Shown piece after piece: positions 6,399 through 12,426 of a stretch of DNA of 27,638 nt. The stretch is from a virus: the IMG/VR virus record IMGVR_UViG_3300020457_000075, positions 1 to 27,638 of that record; one strand, given 5' to 3'. How positions within the stretch are numbered: the first letter of the stretch is position 1; each line of letters starts with the position of its first letter. Both the position numbers and the translations under genes were made by a program. Below the pieces are notes generated by a model. That model saw nothing but the letters and a program-made list of their open reading frames with translations, did not search any database and had not been told where the DNA came from.

Positions 6399-6620
6399 CT
6401 ACCAATCTGGATACTCCCATCTGCTGTCTGGTTTTTTATTTGACATTATCCTTTTTATTGTACACTCTTTACATTCATAAGAATAAGATGAAGCAACGGG
6501 ACCTCTATCTTTTCTTGTCCGATAAAAACTCTCAACTAAATTTTTCATTTCACCACAGGATCTACATTTTCTATCTTGTAAGAGAAGATGACCTAATTTT
6601 ATTTGACCATCTAAATCCAC
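6399..6620 (-). CDS. Small zinc-ribbon protein, unknown function
   Basis: A protein of 73 residues (79 if the upstream GTG at 6638 is used). It carries a four-cysteine zinc-ribbon pattern: RKCRSCGEMK, then 27 residues after the second Cys, then ECKECTIKRI. Short ribbons of this CxxC...CxxC form often begin phage HNH endonucleases, but no HNH motif follows, so nuclease function is not supported. It sits between gp17 and gp18, where T4 has no gene. There is no ATG start. The GTG at 6618-6620 overlaps the gp17 stop by one base (TAGTG), like the TAATG junctions elsewhere in the window, and has GGGAG about 10 nt upstream. I therefore prefer it to the GTG at 6638, which lacks a close ribosome site. 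Translation is probably coupled to gp17, hinting at a packaging-related DNA- or protein-binding role (inference). Confidence 0.75.
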   Translation of the reverse strand: MDLDGQIKLGHLLLQDRKCRSCGEMKNLVESFYRTRKDRGPVASSYSYECKECTIKRIMSNKKPDSRWEYPDW

Positions 6621-8269
6621 TAAGAAAGATACTCCCACATATAGGATTTATCTCCATATTCATCCGCTTTAAACCATCTATCATTACCGTCAGAGAAACT
6701 ATCATCATCCAGTCCATCATTTAAAAATCCAAATGGTGCCATATCCTGTTCTATTTGATTTTTTTGTTCTTCATATAATCTTTTGCGGACATCTTGGTCA
6801 GTCAGTTCCTTAAAGTAGTCCATTTGGACTAACCAGGCATAGATGACCAGACACATTGCTAGATCATCGTTACAACCTTCCTCTGCCTCAAACGAATTAT
6901 GTTTTGAGATAAATGTTGTCAACTCTGAGATAATCTCATAATCATTAAAGAATAGTTTATCCTCTTCGATCAAAGTCTTTAGATTAAGAGAACCTACCTT
7001 CTTCACAGTTTTGGACATCTTTACGCCAAGTTGAGTCTTTTTACCAGAGAAACCTTGACCTACGATCTGTCCTGCTCTACCTCTCATAGAGCACATCAAA
7101 AGATTCTGATACTCAAGATCATACTGCAGAATAGAAGCAACCTGATCTCCAATATCGTTCACCTCGCATAGAATGTAAGAACTATTATAACTCTTCGCTA
7201 CTTCGTAAATAATATTAGGGAACAGCATTGGTTTGATATCATTATTCCTATATTTGGCAACAACCTTATGAGGAAACTCCGTAATGTCTACAACTACAAA
7301 GGCAGAGTAATCCTCTCCAACTCCTCTTGCCACGTCAACAGTCATTACATAATCATGATTTTCTTGTGATGGTTCATAAACATCCAATCCAGCATTTCTC
7401 TGAATAGGATTATCATATATTAGTGTTCTCAATTTACTAGGTGCAATCAGGGTGTCAACAGATCCGAGGAACTCACACTCAAACTCAACCTTGAATTGTG
7501 CTTCTGATGTGTTCTTAATAGTTGTCTTTTTCCACTTTTCATCCCTGCCTGGAACTTCTGACCAGTGAACATCTGTAGGAATATAATCATTTTTTTGTTT
7601 TTCTGCATCGTGCCACAAACGGTAGAAGTGATTCATACCATGAGGGGTAGATACAATAATTACCTTGGTGTTTTGACCAGAAGTAATAGTAGGATAAACA
7701 GAGGCAAAGAACGAGTCAGCAACGTGATTTGGGACGAACGCGAACTCGTCAAGAAAGAGGATGTTGAACGACATACCTCGGACAGCACTCGCAGACGTAG
7801 AAGCTGCCAATATCTTACTGCCATTTTCTAACTCCAGAGATCCTTTGTTCCATGCTATAATTCCCTGCTGCATCCATTTAGGTAAGTTCTCATATGCAGT
7901 TTGTAATCTACCAAGAAGTTCCCTTGCGGTTGCTGCTTTGTTTGCAAGTATTCCAATATTAACACTGTCGTTAAAAACAGCATAGTGCAGAAGATACGAG
8001 ACTACAGTTGTTGATTTACCGGTCTGCCGTGGCATCTTACAGATATTGAATCTGTTATTGTGAAAATTATTAATTAATTTTTCTTGAAAGTGATAAGGAT
8101 GAAATTGTGTCAGACCCTCATCAAGAGAAATAATCTTTACATAGTTATTAGCAAAATAAACAGGATCCTCCTTACACCTCATGAATTCACGGATATTATC
8201 TTCCGTAAATTCAATTGCAGTGTTTGCTTTTTTTAGATTTGGATTGCCAAGGTATACATTATCAGACAT
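6620..8269 (-). CDS. 17: Terminase large subunit gp17 (packaging ATPase and nuclease)
   Basis: This is the packaging motor. It hydrolyses ATP to pump DNA into the prohead through gp20 and cuts the concatemer. The protein has 549 residues (T4: 610). The ATPase domain has Walker A at KMPRQTGKST (78-87), Walker B ILFLDE (170-175) and coupling motif VSTPHG (206-211). The C-terminal RNase H-like nuclease has VDVARGVGEDYSAF (311-324) with Asp312 and Asp320, Glu369 in LCEVNDIGD, and the late acidic pair in CNDDLAM (466-472). All expected catalytic residues are present. It starts 7 nt after the stop of the 610-residue gene, without its own promoter, so it is probably cotranscribed with that gene. In T4 gene 17 directly follows and overlaps gene 16; here two genes intervene. 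Confidence 0.98.
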   Translation of the reverse strand: MSDNVYLGNPNLKKANTAIEFTEDNIREFMRCKEDPVYFANNYVKIISLDEGLTQFHPYHFQEKLINNFHNNRFNICKMPRQTGKSTTVVSYLLHYAVFNDSVNIGILANKAATARELLGRLQTAYENLPKWMQQGIIAWNKGSLELENGSKILAASTSASAVRGMSFNILFLDEFAFVPNHVADSFFASVYPTITSGQNTKVIIVSTPHGMNHFYRLWHDAEKQKNDYIPTDVHWSEVPGRDEKWKKTTIKNTSEAQFKVEFECEFLGSVDTLIAPSKLRTLIYDNPIQRNAGLDVYEPSQENHDYVMTVDVARGVGEDYSAFVVVDITEFPHKVVAKYRNNDIKPMLFPNIIYEVAKSYNSSYILCEVNDIGDQVASILQYDLEYQNLLMCSMRGRAGQIVGQGFSGKKTQLGVKMSKTVKKVGSLNLKTLIEEDKLFFNDYEIISELTTFISKHNSFEAEEGCNDDLAMCLVIYAWLVQMDYFKELTDQDVRKRLYEEQKNQIEQDMAPFGFLNDGLDDDSFSDGNDRWFKADEYGDKSYMWEYLS

Positions 8270-8276
8270 AGGTTAC

Positions 8277-10109
8277 TCAGCAATTCCACTTTCTGAGGGA
8301 CTTATTGATTCTGCTGTCTGGATCATTTGCTGTTTTAGATGATGTCAATTTCTTTTTCATTCCCTTCATTCTGGCGCAAAACGATGCCCTACGGGGATTT
8401 CCAACCTTCTTGCTTGGTGCTTTAAGGTTAGATCCTGGATTTTCTCTTTCGTAAGACTTTCGCCCTTTTTCGTTGAGTCCACCTTCTTTATTCTTGCCTG
8501 CTTTTTTTGTCCATGCTGCTCCTTCTGCAACTTGGAGTAATGGTTGTCCTGGGACATAATCGGCGGTTTGGTAACTTTGTACTCTTGCGCCAGGATAAAC
8601 TTTGTCTACTTCAATCTGTACTTCTGCTTTAGTAGGAACTTTGGTTGAGGGGAAGAACATTCTAAGTGCATAATATCTACCTCTCCAATTGATAGAGGTC
8701 ATGATGATATTACCAGTTTTAGCTGGCATTCTGACTGCTTCAGAATACATGCCCATGGGTTTTACATAATTTTTATTAGGACCTGGTTTGCCACCATCTC
8801 CACCTCTAGGACCATCACACTCAGACATACCATGAACAGGACACTCTTTACCTTCATGAGTATGGTTGCATCCTTCCTTCTCTTCAATTTGTTCAACTTC
8901 TTCTTTTTTAACACAGTTGGGATATCTTTTCCCAAACATGGTCTTCATACCTTTCTTTTCATAACCTTTCCAACACTTCTCGTCAAGATTGTCCTCAGAA
9001 ATACCTGCTTTTCTGAGTCTCTTTGCTTGACTCTTGTGCATTTCAACTGCTTTATCTAATTCTTTAGCAATACCCTTCACATTCTTGGGTGTATTATGCA
9101 TTTCGTCAATTTCAAATTCTTCCTTCTTAGTTTTGTTTCCCCAGTTTGCTGCACCTACTTTTCTGCATTTGACTAGTGCTCCTGACGCATACGCACTTGG
9201 CCATACAGAGTAACGTGACTTGACCTTATGATAGCAAGCATCTTTCTTGCCTTCCTCAATATCGATCTCGTCACCTACCTCTACATTATTTTCTGCGAAC
9301 CATCCACGGTTTACTTCTAACGCACACAGCACTTCTCCATCAGAAGCGACTGGACTCTCGTCAAATGGTTCTAACTCTTTGATGCTTTCGATTGTTCCAT
9401 CCTCTTTTATGAAAGCAATATCAAGAGGAATTCTTGTTTCTGTCATGTGGAAAGACTGCTCTGCAACTTCATCAAAGATGAACAGCATTCCACTACTGTT
9501 GTCTAAACTCTCACGGAACATCAATCCTAAGTTAAAATCTCTAATGTTGTTCGGAATTTCAACATTGAGAGGTAAAGTAATGAAATCTGTAGATTCGCTC
9601 ATTTTCTTCTTAGGTTTATCAGTTGATACATATGTGGGTTTTGCCGCACCTGTCTTTTGTGGTTGACCCGGATCTGCAGCTCTTTTTCTTCTTTGAGCAG
9701 ACTGTCTTTCAGATTTGCTCATACTTGCCCTCTTTGCAGAGGACACGCATTTGGGTGTTGACTTCTGTCCCGGTTGACGAGCACAGGGTTTACCTGATAC
9801 TACTTGAACCCAACCTGGTTTTCCTCCTTTTGATTTAGACTTGCCAAACCAATCACGAAGACCCTCCTCGCTTATTCCTCCACCGTTCCCGTTGGATCCA
9901 CCATTGCCACTCCCATTCCCATTACCACCATTGCCATTACCATTGCCATTAGAAACATTACCATTTTTGGGTTCGTCTACAGAGTGTCCATTTTCTTTGC
10001 GGAGATATCCAGCACGACCTACTGCCTTAAATCCTTTAGGGATTGGTTTACACTTTTTATCAGTGTAGCAGTAGTATTGCCCAGCTGGGCATTTGCCGTT
10101 TTTCTTCAT
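8277..10109 (-). CDS. Cys-rich multidomain protein with DUF192-like domain, unknown function
   Basis: A 610-residue mosaic with 15 cysteines, located between the fibre gene and gp17. Modules in order: a Cys motif CPAGQYYCYTDKKCKPIPKG (7-26); an Asn/Gly low-complexity linker (49-78); a basic DUF5872-like segment (80-145: DWFGK...GWVQV...CVSSAKRASMSKS); a DUF192-like beta domain (175-285: NLGLMFRES, GMLFIFDE, MTETRIPLDIAFIKEDG, CALEVNRGWF); ACYHKVKSRYSVWPSAYASG (291-310) with ALVKCRK; a CWKGYEKKGMK...PNCV module (379-400); CNHTHEGKECPVHG (414-427); a WRGRYY...MFFP...VYPGARV domain (475-510); and a DUF6321-like C-terminus (SYERENPGS...NPRRASFCARM...LRKWNC). DUF numbers are from memory. DUF192 is usually found in bacterial envelope proteins. 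It is preceded by a perfect TATAAATA and shares a transcript with gp17. No signal peptide or membrane segment is seen. A virion or packaging-associated role is inferred. Confidence 0.85.
   Translation of the reverse strand: MKKNGKCPAGQYYCYTDKKCKPIPKGFKAVGRAGYLRKENGHSVDEPKNGNVSNGNGNGNGGNGNGSGNGGSNGNGGGISEEGLRDWFGKSKSKGGKPGWVQVVSGKPCARQPGQKSTPKCVSSAKRASMSKSERQSAQRRKRAADPGQPQKTGAAKPTYVSTDKPKKKMSESTDFITLPLNVEIPNNIRDFNLGLMFRESLDNSSGMLFIFDEVAEQSFHMTETRIPLDIAFIKEDGTIESIKELEPFDESPVASDGEVLCALEVNRGWFAENNVEVGDEIDIEEGKKDACYHKVKSRYSVWPSAYASGALVKCRKVGAANWGNKTKKEEFEIDEMHNTPKNVKGIAKELDKAVEMHKSQAKRLRKAGISEDNLDEKCWKGYEKKGMKTMFGKRYPNCVKKEEVEQIEEKEGCNHTHEGKECPVHGMSECDGPRGGDGGKPGPNKNYVKPMGMYSEAVRMPAKTGNIIMTSINWRGRYYALRMFFPSTKVPTKAEVQIEVDKVYPGARVQSYQTADYVPGQPLLQVAEGAAWTKKAGKNKEGGLNEKGRKSYERENPGSNLKAPSKKVGNPRRASFCARMKGMKKKLTSSKTANDPDSRINKSLRKWNC
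9255..9587 (-). other. DUF192-like domain within the 610-residue protein
   Basis: Residues 175-285 follow the DUF192 pattern: a GLMFRESL helix start, GMLFIFDE strand, the HMTETRIPLDIAF core (family usually WMKNTxxPLDI), a hydrophilic strand around the EDG turn, and CALEVNRGWFAENNVEVGDEI (family: vLEvnaGxxxxxgixxGD). The match is clear by eye, although the family Trp before Met is His here. Confidence 0.75.
9876..9965 (-). repeat. Low-complexity Asn/Gly codon repeat
   Basis: An imperfect run of GGTAAT/GGCAATGG-type units encodes an Asn/Gly linker (residues 49-78 of the 610-residue protein). The repeat is in frame and separates the N-terminal Cys motif from the rest. Length variation by slippage in multiples of 3 or 6 is plausible. 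Confidence 0.7.
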
Positions 10110-10130: not shown

Positions 10131-10138
10131 TATTTATA
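10131..10138 (-). promoter_or_regulatory. T4-type late promoter for the 610-residue gene (and gp17)
   Basis: A perfect TATAAATA on the minus strand, 5 nt after the stop of the fibre gene and 21 nt before the ATG. It is the nearest upstream promoter for gp17 and probably also for the zinc-ribbon gene. Confidence 0.8.
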
Positions 10139-10143
10139 TAATA

Positions 10144-11955
10144 TTATCCGTCTAACGCTACAGTAAGACCAAGAGTCATACCAGGTAGTGATTGCCAGGA
10201 TGTTCCATCATAAAACTCCATTTTTTTAGTTGTTGTATTGTATATCATTGAACCTTCTGTTAAAGTATTTGAACTAGTAGCACTATCTCTAGTGGTAGTT
10301 GTATATTGTGGCATAAAGAATGCTGCTCCAACCGTTGCTATGCCAGTAACATTCCAATTTCTGGCACTTGCTTCATCATAGGTTAAATCTCCACTTACAT
10401 TAAGATTACCTGTGATTGTTGCATCACCCTCAACATATAAAGCAGAATCAGATCTTGCCGTAGTGGCGATGCCAACGTTTTTTGTGGTATGAATACCAAC
10501 CGTATTAGTTGCCCAAGTTCCACCAGCTCCAACTCCACCACTAGCAGCGACTTTCCATTTGTTTGAAGAGTCATTCCATTTTAAAATATAACCATCTTGT
10601 AATCCAGAAATATCTACATCATCCAGGTCTTTAATAAACCCAGCACCACCACCACCAATAGATCCTAGTTGATATTGTACCCTTTCTACAAACCTTTTGT
10701 AGTGCTGTTGTAATTGATCTAGAGTTACAAAATTTTGATCAATAGGAGTAAGCGGATCTGAACTCTTTGTATCAGGAGGATCCATCCCCAGAGGAACATT
10801 TGTCTCTGCTAGAAGTTTTTGTTCTTCCTGTAGTTGTTTTTGAGAAGACTTAATATCTTCTACAAGTTTATAAAGTCCTTTAATATCAGACTTTACGTAA
10901 TCAATGTCTTTATCATAATACTTAATTTCAGGCAGACCAGAAATCTCTTCTTTTAATTCAGTAAAATACTTAAGAAGTAATTCATCAGTTTTTACACTGG
11001 TATAGTTAATTTCCTTAAGTTCCTTATTAATCTTATTCTTGAGTTGATTATATTCTCCAAGAATCTGCTTTTTGAGTTTGCGATCATCATCTTTGAACTC
11101 TTTGTGGTATTCCCACATTTTTATGGAAGAAGATCTCATCTCCTTCCAAATCTTATCTTTCTCTTCGTCAATACGAAAGTTTACTTTACTATTAAGGTCT
11201 TTAATATCAGAATCAATCTTAACTGTATTATTGAAGTGTTTTATGTCTAAATCTTCAGATAGTTGCCCAAGGTCATATTCGACTTTTCCTCTCAATCCTT
11301 CAATTTTATCAGATACTTTTACAAAATCATCATCAATTACGCTAAAAGTCTTACCAATCCAAGAGAAATCTGGAACTTCATTTACTTCATTAACCCACTT
11401 AGGAAACTTGGGAATTGATGCCTTTACCTGATCGATTGCCTCACAAATTGCTTCAATCTCTTTATCATAATACTTTACTTCAGGGAGATTTGCTACATCA
11501 GTTTGAAGACTATCAATTCTATCTTCAATAGCATCTACTTGCTCATCGTAATATTTAACTTCTGGAAGGTCTTTAATCTGATCTCTTACTAAGTCAATCT
11601 GATCGCAGATTGCTTCTACTTCTCTATCATAATACTTTACCTCAGGAAGTTGTGAGATCTGTTCTGCAAGATCTTCAAGTTCTTTGTCATAATATTTAAT
11701 CTCTGGTATATCAGGAATTTCTTCTCTGACATCATTGATTAGACGAATTAATTCTGGAAATGGTGGAACTATATCTTTTACTTCTAAGAAACTATTTCCA
11801 TCAGCGTCTTCAATGGTTTGAGTTTCTTCCTCTATTTCAATATATTCTTCTACAGAAGGGAGTTCCTCTGCGTTCTCTTCTGTATAATAATCTTCTACTG
11901 ACGGCAGACTTTTGTCTCCATCAAAATCCTCATACGAGGGCAAATCCTTTGACAT
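10144..11955 (-). CDS. Coiled-coil fibre-like virion protein with PE(I/V)KYYD repeats
   Basis: A 603-residue fibrous protein, apparently of cyanophage type and not found in T4. The N-terminus is acidic with three LPSVE(D/E)Y-like motifs (5-11, 17-23, 32-38). Next come four PE(I/V)KYYD repeats (84, 104, 131, 158) with heptad-like helices between them and a fifth at 342. A long coiled coil spans about 205-385. The C-terminus changes to a trimeric-fibre style: GSIGGGGAGFIKDLDDVDIS, DGYILKWNDSSNKWKV (454-469), GIHTTKNVGIATT, LYVEGDATITGNLNVSGD (506-523) and MIYNTTTKKMEFYDGTSWQS (570-589). The terminal blocks resemble phage tail-fibre and tail-spike ends. It may be a neck whisker, head fibre or tail fibre. 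Its position beside the neck genes hints at a fibritin-like whisker, but no foldon sequence is recognised. It is preceded by CCTAAATA. Confidence 0.85.
   Translation of the reverse strand: MSKDLPSYEDFDGDKSLPSVEDYYTEENAEELPSVEEYIEIEEETQTIEDADGNSFLEVKDIVPPFPELIRLINDVREEIPDIPEIKYYDKELEDLAEQISQLPEVKYYDREVEAICDQIDLVRDQIKDLPEVKYYDEQVDAIEDRIDSLQTDVANLPEVKYYDKEIEAICEAIDQVKASIPKFPKWVNEVNEVPDFSWIGKTFSVIDDDFVKVSDKIEGLRGKVEYDLGQLSEDLDIKHFNNTVKIDSDIKDLNSKVNFRIDEEKDKIWKEMRSSSIKMWEYHKEFKDDDRKLKKQILGEYNQLKNKINKELKEINYTSVKTDELLLKYFTELKEEISGLPEIKYYDKDIDYVKSDIKGLYKLVEDIKSSQKQLQEEQKLLAETNVPLGMDPPDTKSSDPLTPIDQNFVTLDQLQQHYKRFVERVQYQLGSIGGGGAGFIKDLDDVDISGLQDGYILKWNDSSNKWKVAASGGVGAGGTWATNTVGIHTTKNVGIATTARSDSALYVEGDATITGNLNVSGDLTYDEASARNWNVTGIATVGAAFFMPQYTTTTRDSATSSNTLTEGSMIYNTTTKKMEFYDGTSWQSLPGMTLGLTVALDG
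11464..11706 (-). repeat. Tandem PE(I/V)KYYD protein repeats (units of 20, 27 and 27 residues)
   Basis: Four copies of PE(I/V)KYYD begin at residues 84, 104, 131 and 158, and an isolated fifth copy is encoded at 10912-10932. Unit lengths of 20, 27 and 27 differ by exactly 7, one coiled-coil heptad. The DNA carries recurring copies of a TATTATGA-containing core. Confidence 0.85.
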
Positions 11956-11997: not shown

Positions 11998-12426
11998 TTA
12001 TTTAGGATCCTCTTTAAGTCCATCCTTTAACATCTTTGCGAGATCTGCTGTAGACCCGACAAATAAAGCATTATTAACAGTTGATGGTCCTTTTATTTTT
12101 TCCTCTGCTTCAACATCTTTTAATTTCTTTTGAAGGTCAAGTAATTTATCTGTTGCATCTGCAACGTTTTTTATCAACTGTCCTGCAACTTCATACGCTC
12201 TTGGCATTTCACTTTCTTGTGCAAGTTCAAGGACACCATTTAATGCCTCTTGTCCTTTTTCGATGATTGAGTAAAGATTACCTCTGGTATATTCATAATC
12301 TTTTTTAACATCATCAATACCTTCTTTTACTTTTTCAATTTTGCGTTCGATTACTTCTGGTTGAACGATGTCATCTGAGGTATTGAATGTCTCGTTGAGA
12401 TCGTTGAAGTTCTTTGTCATAGTCAT
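11998..12426 (-). CDS. 16: Terminase small subunit gp16
   Basis: A 142-residue helical protein (T4 gp16: 164). It regulates the gp17 motor and helps recognise viral DNA at the start of packaging. Matching segments to T4 gp16 are: DYEYTRGNLYSIIEKGQEAL (43-62; T4 DDYGVVRRN...), LAQESEMPRAYEV (68-80; T4 AKNADSPRHMEV), LLDLQKKLKDV (95-105; T4 ILKLHKDMKDI) and NNALFVGSTADLAKML (118-133; T4 QNATVFMGSPTELMDEI). The family pattern of two central antiparallel helices with a C-terminal NAxFVGST motif is intact. The ATG overlaps the gp15 TAA by one base (TAATG), suggesting translational coupling; a second ATG lies two codons in. Gp15-gp16 order is as in T4, but gp17 is displaced by two genes. Confidence 0.92.
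   Translation of the reverse strand: MTMTKNFNDLNETFNTSDDIVQPEVIERKIEKVKEGIDDVKKDYEYTRGNLYSIIEKGQEALNGVLELAQESEMPRAYEVAGQLIKNVADATDKLLDLQKKLKDVEAEEKIKGPSTVNNALFVGSTADLAKMLKDGLKEDPK
11999..12006 (-). promoter_or_regulatory. Variant late promoter CCTAAATA for the fibre gene
   Basis: CCTAAATA on the minus strand. Its last two bases are part of the gp16 TAA stop, and it lies 43 nt before the fibre ATG. The same octamer occurs before gp13 and gp15. Confidence 0.55.

Follow-up and report, generated by a model that had tools for sequence, protein, structure and literature searches.

A cyanophage protein built of shuffled cysteine-paired modules, and T4-type capsid-targeting leaders on its sister proteins

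Leader peptides that fit the capsid-targeting rule of bacteriophage T4 stand at the start of cyanophage proteins sharing modules with a 610-residue, cysteine-rich open reading frame (ORF), and of the NMNAT-like cytidylyltransferase of cyanophage virions, and this is the most interesting result of the present analysis. The ORF (8277..10109, minus strand) lies in a 27.6-kb virus record, analysed over its full 27,638 nucleotides (hereafter the window), whose nearest named relatives are the Kyanoviridae (T4-like cyanophages) S-SM2, Bellamy and SynMITS9220M01. With moderate confidence, we read its product as a minor component of the virion, made late and housed in the head interior, in which a flexible string of small, mostly basic, Cys-paired modules would bind the prohead core, the packaged DNA or both; the protein may pass into the host along with the genome. 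Little is known of what T4-like cyanophages carry in their heads, and hence of what they could deliver to marine picocyanobacteria within a minute of the onset of infection; virions have yielded NMNAT, kinases and further enzymes for which no loading mechanism had been given. The T4-rule leaders of NMNAT and the sister proteins point to a direct loading mechanism and to a sequence rule for listing candidate head cargo in many genomes, and in the 610-residue ORF the same module kit is found shuffled through proteins that have virion-associated members.

Modules, composition and locus of the 610-residue protein

Nine modules, A to I, all encoded on the minus strand, were delimited with iterated HMMs; Pfam alone recognises DUF192 and DUF6321. 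Module A (CPxGQYYCYTDKKCKPIPKGF; residues 4-34; 10008..10100), whose HMM gave 59 domain hits in the fetched loci, is followed by a Gly/Asn-rich linker (residues 36-80, also delimited as 46-80; 9870..10004) predicted mostly at pLDDT 30-41. Imperfect 27/12-nt repeats at window positions 9898-9965 encode this linker, the length of which differs between homologues. Module B, of the form DWFGKSKSK...CxxQPGQ...PKC...RRKRAADP (residues 81-172; 9594..9869), is present in 360 phage records, and the basic segment of residues 81-175 has a net charge of +15. Module C, a DUF192 domain (residues 182-284; 9258..9566), scores 92.7 bits against a Pfam cut-off of 27 (E=1.6e-26), and its predicted structure is matched by Foldseek to 3pjy and 3m7a (E about 5e-6, TM 0.59-0.62 by target). 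Module D, CYHKVKSRY.VWPSAYASGALVKCRKVGAANWG (residues 288-328; 9126..9248), was defined by its HMM and resembles the Pfam family DUF5872 only weakly, below the cut-off (16.2 bits vs 27.5, E=0.016). The most mobile module is E, a MHxTPKxV...MHKSQAKRL helix (residues 333-369; 9003..9113), and it is followed by module F, a CWKGYEKKGMKTMFGKRYPNCV hairpin common to proteins encoded near the cytidyltransferase gene (residues 374-403; 8901..8990), and by the optional module G, CxHTHxGxxCPxHGxxxC (residues 410-436; 8802..8882), a possible metal site. Module H, a WRGRYY...MFFP...VYPGARV bb-a-b domain (residues 455-525; 8535..8747), precedes the C-terminal module I (FCARM...LRKWNC; residues 538-610; 8280..8498), which is found in 552 phage records and in which DUF6321 (PF19846) covers residues 538-608, the C-terminal 71 residues, with 80 bits against a gathering cut-off of 28.5 (E=2e-22).

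When four of the modules were searched one by one, each matched 45 to 552 phage records, and therefore the modules lie far beyond chance. An AlphaFold model built on a 59-sequence alignment gave separate beads (mean pLDDT 57, pTM 0.27), with H at about 90 and DUF192 at about 78 pLDDT, which rules out one continuous known fold, the outcome that would have spoken against the modular description in the initial annotation. Every element of that description is present: the DUF192, WRGRYY/MFFP/VYPGARV and FCARM...LRKWNC domains, a basic segment, all four Cys motifs and the 15 Cys. As the confident bb-a-b model of H had no significant match in the PDB (best E=0.73, to the RNAP-interacting protein YkzG), no function is drawn for this module. 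A PADLOC search, whose models cover defence and not counter-defence, returned no match to the protein, and no packaging- or terminase-related similarity was found in it with Pfam, PHROGs or NCBIfam.

The 15 Cys (positions 7, 14, 20, 109, 121, 262, 292, 315, 379, 399, 414, 423, 431, 578 and 610) make up 2.46% of the protein, the range in the other proteins examined from the window being 0-1.28%. Among homologues having residues at these places, 98-100% keep the Cys that belong to A, B, D, F and I. The net charge is +33, with a median of +31 among homologues, and the other late proteins examined in the window are acidic.

The genes named here are all on the minus strand. The gene for the small terminase subunit gp16 (11998..12426; PHROG 445, E=8.6e-56) and that for a tail-fibre-like 603-residue protein (10144..11955; PHROG tail fibre matches) lie upstream of the ORF, and that for the large terminase subunit gp17 (6620..8269) lies downstream, its start at 8269 being 7 nt past the stop codon of the ORF. 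A perfect T4-type late promoter, TATAAATA (10131..10138), is located 21 nt upstream of the ATG, a box of the form NATAAATA precedes 19 of 26 homologues, and no box of the TATAAATA kind was seen immediately upstream of gp17; the matches from a sigma-70 promoter scan were no better than chance. As to the promoter that the initial annotation had the ORF share with gp17, the two genes are probably co-transcribed. The position directly before gp17 is kept as well, being found in 49 of 53 loci of close homologues with a gap of 7-8 nt in most of them.

Module shuffling, family membership and virion association

Among 80 homologues on viral contigs, modules have been gained, lost, re-ordered and split off as separate genes, which answers the question of shuffling raised in the initial annotation. 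The commonest architecture is A-B-C-D-F-G-H-I (n=23). Module E occurs at varying places (A-E-B-C-D-F-I, A-B-E-C-D-F-G-H-I and F-E-I), F and D change places (B-E-F-D-H-I, and B-F-D in S-CREM2 gp160), some homologues do without DUF192, and genes of their own may encode H or I; in S-CAM9, S-PRM1 and S-8S53, H is at the opposite end of the region matched. All nine modules, E and G among them, are present in the window copy, and most relatives are without one or more. An N-terminal extension (PRIPRKPGQPANSKKHSDLYTDENPKGTIHGLGF...HAHKIQAAVAMEQRA) in two of the collected loci (L001:4512-4997 and L002:4701-4988) and in many viral homologues constitutes a further module that is missing from the window copy. 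We also noted that a standalone 81-residue DUF6321 protein of MinM2 (L100:5962-6207) is annotated as a 'RecA-like recombination protein', apparently in error.

The protein belongs to a family that has been catalogued before. It matches PHROG 727 with E=1.9e-142, and S-SM2_109, annotated as T4-like GC 119, is about 70% identical over 100%. T4-GC119 of Sullivan et al. (2010) includes S-SM2_109 and P-SSM4_160, and these authors listed it as hypothetical within a mobile zwf/gnd/petE/PTOX carbon-metabolism cassette (PMC3037559). In P-SSM4 the gene is outside the gp16-gp17 interval, adjoining the genes for cytidyltransferase and nrdA. The library searched contained no paper on DUF6321, and T4-GC119 / PHROG 727 is an uncharacterised family. 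The word 'unknown' in the initial annotation slightly overstated the novelty, as T4-GC119 / PHROG 727, DUF192 and DUF6321 are all on record.

Relatives of the protein have been listed in virions of three cyanophages. The S-SCSM1 homologue, SSCSM1_29, carries a 'virion protein' label in GenBank, a close but not exact proxy, since the record has 48 such labels vs 45 proteins detected by mass spectrometry (MS) in the corresponding paper. The MS tables include S-CREM2 gp137 (H-I, 4 peptides), S-CREM2 gp160 (7 peptides) and S-SZBM1_139 (module F, 4 peptides). Taken together, 4 of the 7 module-bearing proteins of these phages are in the virion lists, vs 130/719 (18%) of the background (Fisher p=0.023), in a comparison of seven proteins only that is biased toward large ones and combines a GenBank label for S-SCSM1 with MS tables for S-CREM2 and S-SZBM1. 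Above 150 residues the count is 4 of 5 (p=0.004), and the three module proteins missed by MS are the three smallest. S-SZBM1_190, considered as a positional homologue and detected by MS, was left out of the count, as it has none of the modules. What MS reports is association with the virion; it does not show location, and some entries may be contaminants, a possibility that the authors of the S-CREM2 study acknowledged for some of their non-structural proteins. Homologues are neither consistently outside the packaging cluster nor absent from virions, and we consider it likely that the 610-residue protein is itself a member of the virion. In the S-CREM2 virion proteome we also encountered gp12, annotated as Cas9/Csn1 (L096:7704-10313; 28 peptides), in which our scans found no module and no leader.

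Capsid-targeting leaders on sister proteins

The neighbour of the S-SCSM1 homologue, SSCSM1_30 (PHROG 1742), consists of module H alone and starts with MKTFKQFMSE; in the T4 record, ipII and ipIII begin with MKTYQEFIAE. For T4 IPIII, the first ten residues are enough for head targeting, residues 4 and 7 being required for targeting and residues 8 and 10 for processing (PMC9026906). The standalone H gene, of about 105 codons in relatives, fits this rule in all 17 copies of a first locus set, gathered without any leader pattern, and starts with MK[SNT]F..F[ILM].E in 92/97 copies of a second set, gathered partly with the leader peptide pattern and therefore mildly biased. Eight standalone DUF6321 proteins have a similar leader, and the background frequency is 0/1,412 ORFs. 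Furthermore, the NMNAT-like cytidylyltransferase begins with MK[SN][FLY]xxFLxE in 47/47 loci (L106-L153), 41 of them under the strict aromatic rule; examples are SSCSM1_91 (L008:38819-40048), SSZBM1_140 and S-CREM2 gp154. This enzyme has repeatedly been found in cyanophage virions without explanation, and the leader, as read from the sequence, is likely to be its loading mechanism. Two other MS-detected virion proteins of S-CREM2 have starts of this type, the S-adenosylmethionine hydrolase gp6 (MKDFDSFLEE; L096:3837-5081) and the hypothetical protein gp136 (MQTFSMFFSE; L098:7301-8014).

The occurrence of H as a standalone gene with a T4-type capsid-targeting sequence (CTS), and of the same leader on some DUF6321 proteins and on NMNAT, is new in this analysis. 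The literature search on capsid targeting in cyanophages returned only a T4 review, in which cyanophages are mentioned in one reference title, and no paper in the library searched connects such a leader with the virion NMNAT. Standalone DUF6321 genes are also placed close to head genes: in pelagiphage HTVC304P one lies between the scaffold gene and that for the major capsid protein, and in P-SCSP1c one directly follows the latter gene; nothing on the DUF6321 protein was found in the cryo-EM paper on P-SCSP1u. The proximity of standalone H to gp17 was dropped as evidence of co-function, as it is found in only 31/63 loci, at 0.7-1.8 kb.

The 610-residue protein begins with MKKNGKCPAGQYYC, which does not fit the CTS pattern of aromatic residues at 4 and 7, an aliphatic residue at 8 and Glu at 10, and no CTS was found on any of the multi-module proteins examined. 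As this test failed, no membership of the internal protein (IP) family is claimed for the window protein. Since standalone H and some DUF6321 proteins carry a CTS, its modules H and I are therefore shared with proteins tagged for head entry. The suggestion of the initial annotation that the protein could be delivered with the DNA gains plausibility from this leader, because standalone H has it in 92 of 97 copies.

Place in the virion and relation to known systems

In the head-interior reading, the protein would be expressed late, might be taken up into the prohead core via its basic modules or via contact with CTS-tagged sister proteins, and would be retained amid the packaged DNA, presumably by binding it; it may then leave with the genome, and the optional DUF192 module, with whatever activity it may have, would be cargo. 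These steps build on the late-promoter context, the charge, the module sharing and the virion listing of relatives. An interior location of the multi-module form, which has no CTS of its own, is moderately likely, and by analogy the protein might also be injected into the host. The tail-fibre-like neighbour, the failure of MS to detect the three smallest module proteins and the lack of a CTS on multi-module proteins speak against this reading.

The same neighbour, which is found in S-SM2, Bellamy and S-SCSM1 as well as in the window, would suit a protein on the outside of the virion, serving as decoration or associated with the fibres, with disulfide-stabilised mini-domains exposed to seawater and with DUF192 or other modules that bind host surface sugars. 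The flexible Gly/Asn linkers would also suit it, as would the conserved, widely spaced Cys pairs, whose even conservation could reflect disulfides, a trait typical of exposed proteins; in addition, a putative part in extracellular sugar processing has been ascribed to DUF192 (PMC3597751). However, modules H and I are found again on proteins that bear capsid-targeting leaders, module I adjoins scaffold or capsid genes in podoviruses, the protein is strongly positive in charge, and T4-GC119 is away from fibre genes in P-SSM4, so we give this explanation only tentative credence.

The gap of 7-8 nt to gp17 in most close homologues, with probable co-transcription, would accord with an accessory role in assembly or packaging, in which the protein contacts the terminase or the prohead core during morphogenesis and is merely trapped in virions. 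We judge this unlikely, and the packaging link suggested in the initial annotation is not supported, as the gp16-gp17 interval is a recognised variable region, or hot spot, in the cited literature, the family also occurs outside it (in P-SSM4 and with the zwf/gnd cassette), and nothing, including a terminase-related domain in Pfam or PHROGs, ties the protein to the terminase. The listing of T4-GC119 in the carbon-metabolism cassette would in turn be expected of a regulatory or metabolic accessory that is not a virion protein and moves with that cassette; the late promoter and the appearance of module-bearing proteins in the virion lists of three phages argue against it, and we regard it as very improbable.

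Under the head-interior reading, a broader and more speculative extension, which we put forward with low confidence, is a combinatorial kit, in which head-packaged, host-delivered cyanophage proteins would be assembled from common small basic Cys modules. Entry into the prohead would be gained by a T4-type leader (standalone H and DUF6321, as in NMNAT and the SAM hydrolase) or by the modules themselves (the 610-residue protein), the modules would serve as tags for cargo loading or DNA binding, and optional domains such as DUF192 would be the delivered effectors.

Among known families, the closest is T4-GC119 / PHROG 727 itself, with the full-length homologues S-SM2_109, Bellamy gp123 and that of SynMITS9220M01 at about 70% identity. 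DUF192 / COG1430 (3m7a, 3pjy) agrees with module C in sequence and predicted fold, but its solved relatives are single-domain cellular proteins, whereas in the phage protein it is an insert that some homologues lack; DUF6321 (PF19846), which in other proteins often stands alone or at the C-terminus, is here one of nine modules. The virion NMNAT-like cytidylyltransferase (T4-GC190) has a module-bearing protein, mostly with module F, less than 3 kb away in 8/49 loci, and differs from the 610-residue protein in having its own CTS-like leader and an enzymatic domain. A DUF192-like region was also matched in a cytidyltransferase-like protein of an uncultured virus (BFVD A0A218MMM0), which links DUF192 to an NMNAT-type virion enzyme. 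With T4 IPI, IPII and IPIII (and Alt) no sequence homology was seen, and the 610-residue protein is much larger than these and has no CTS. The T4 internal proteins are likewise late, basic (PMC9026906), non-conserved and interchangeable head cargo, the charge of +33 fits this description, and the sister proteins built of the same modules bear the CTS; the best reading, by analogy, is that the protein would be a counterpart of the T4 internal proteins and not a part of the packaging motor.
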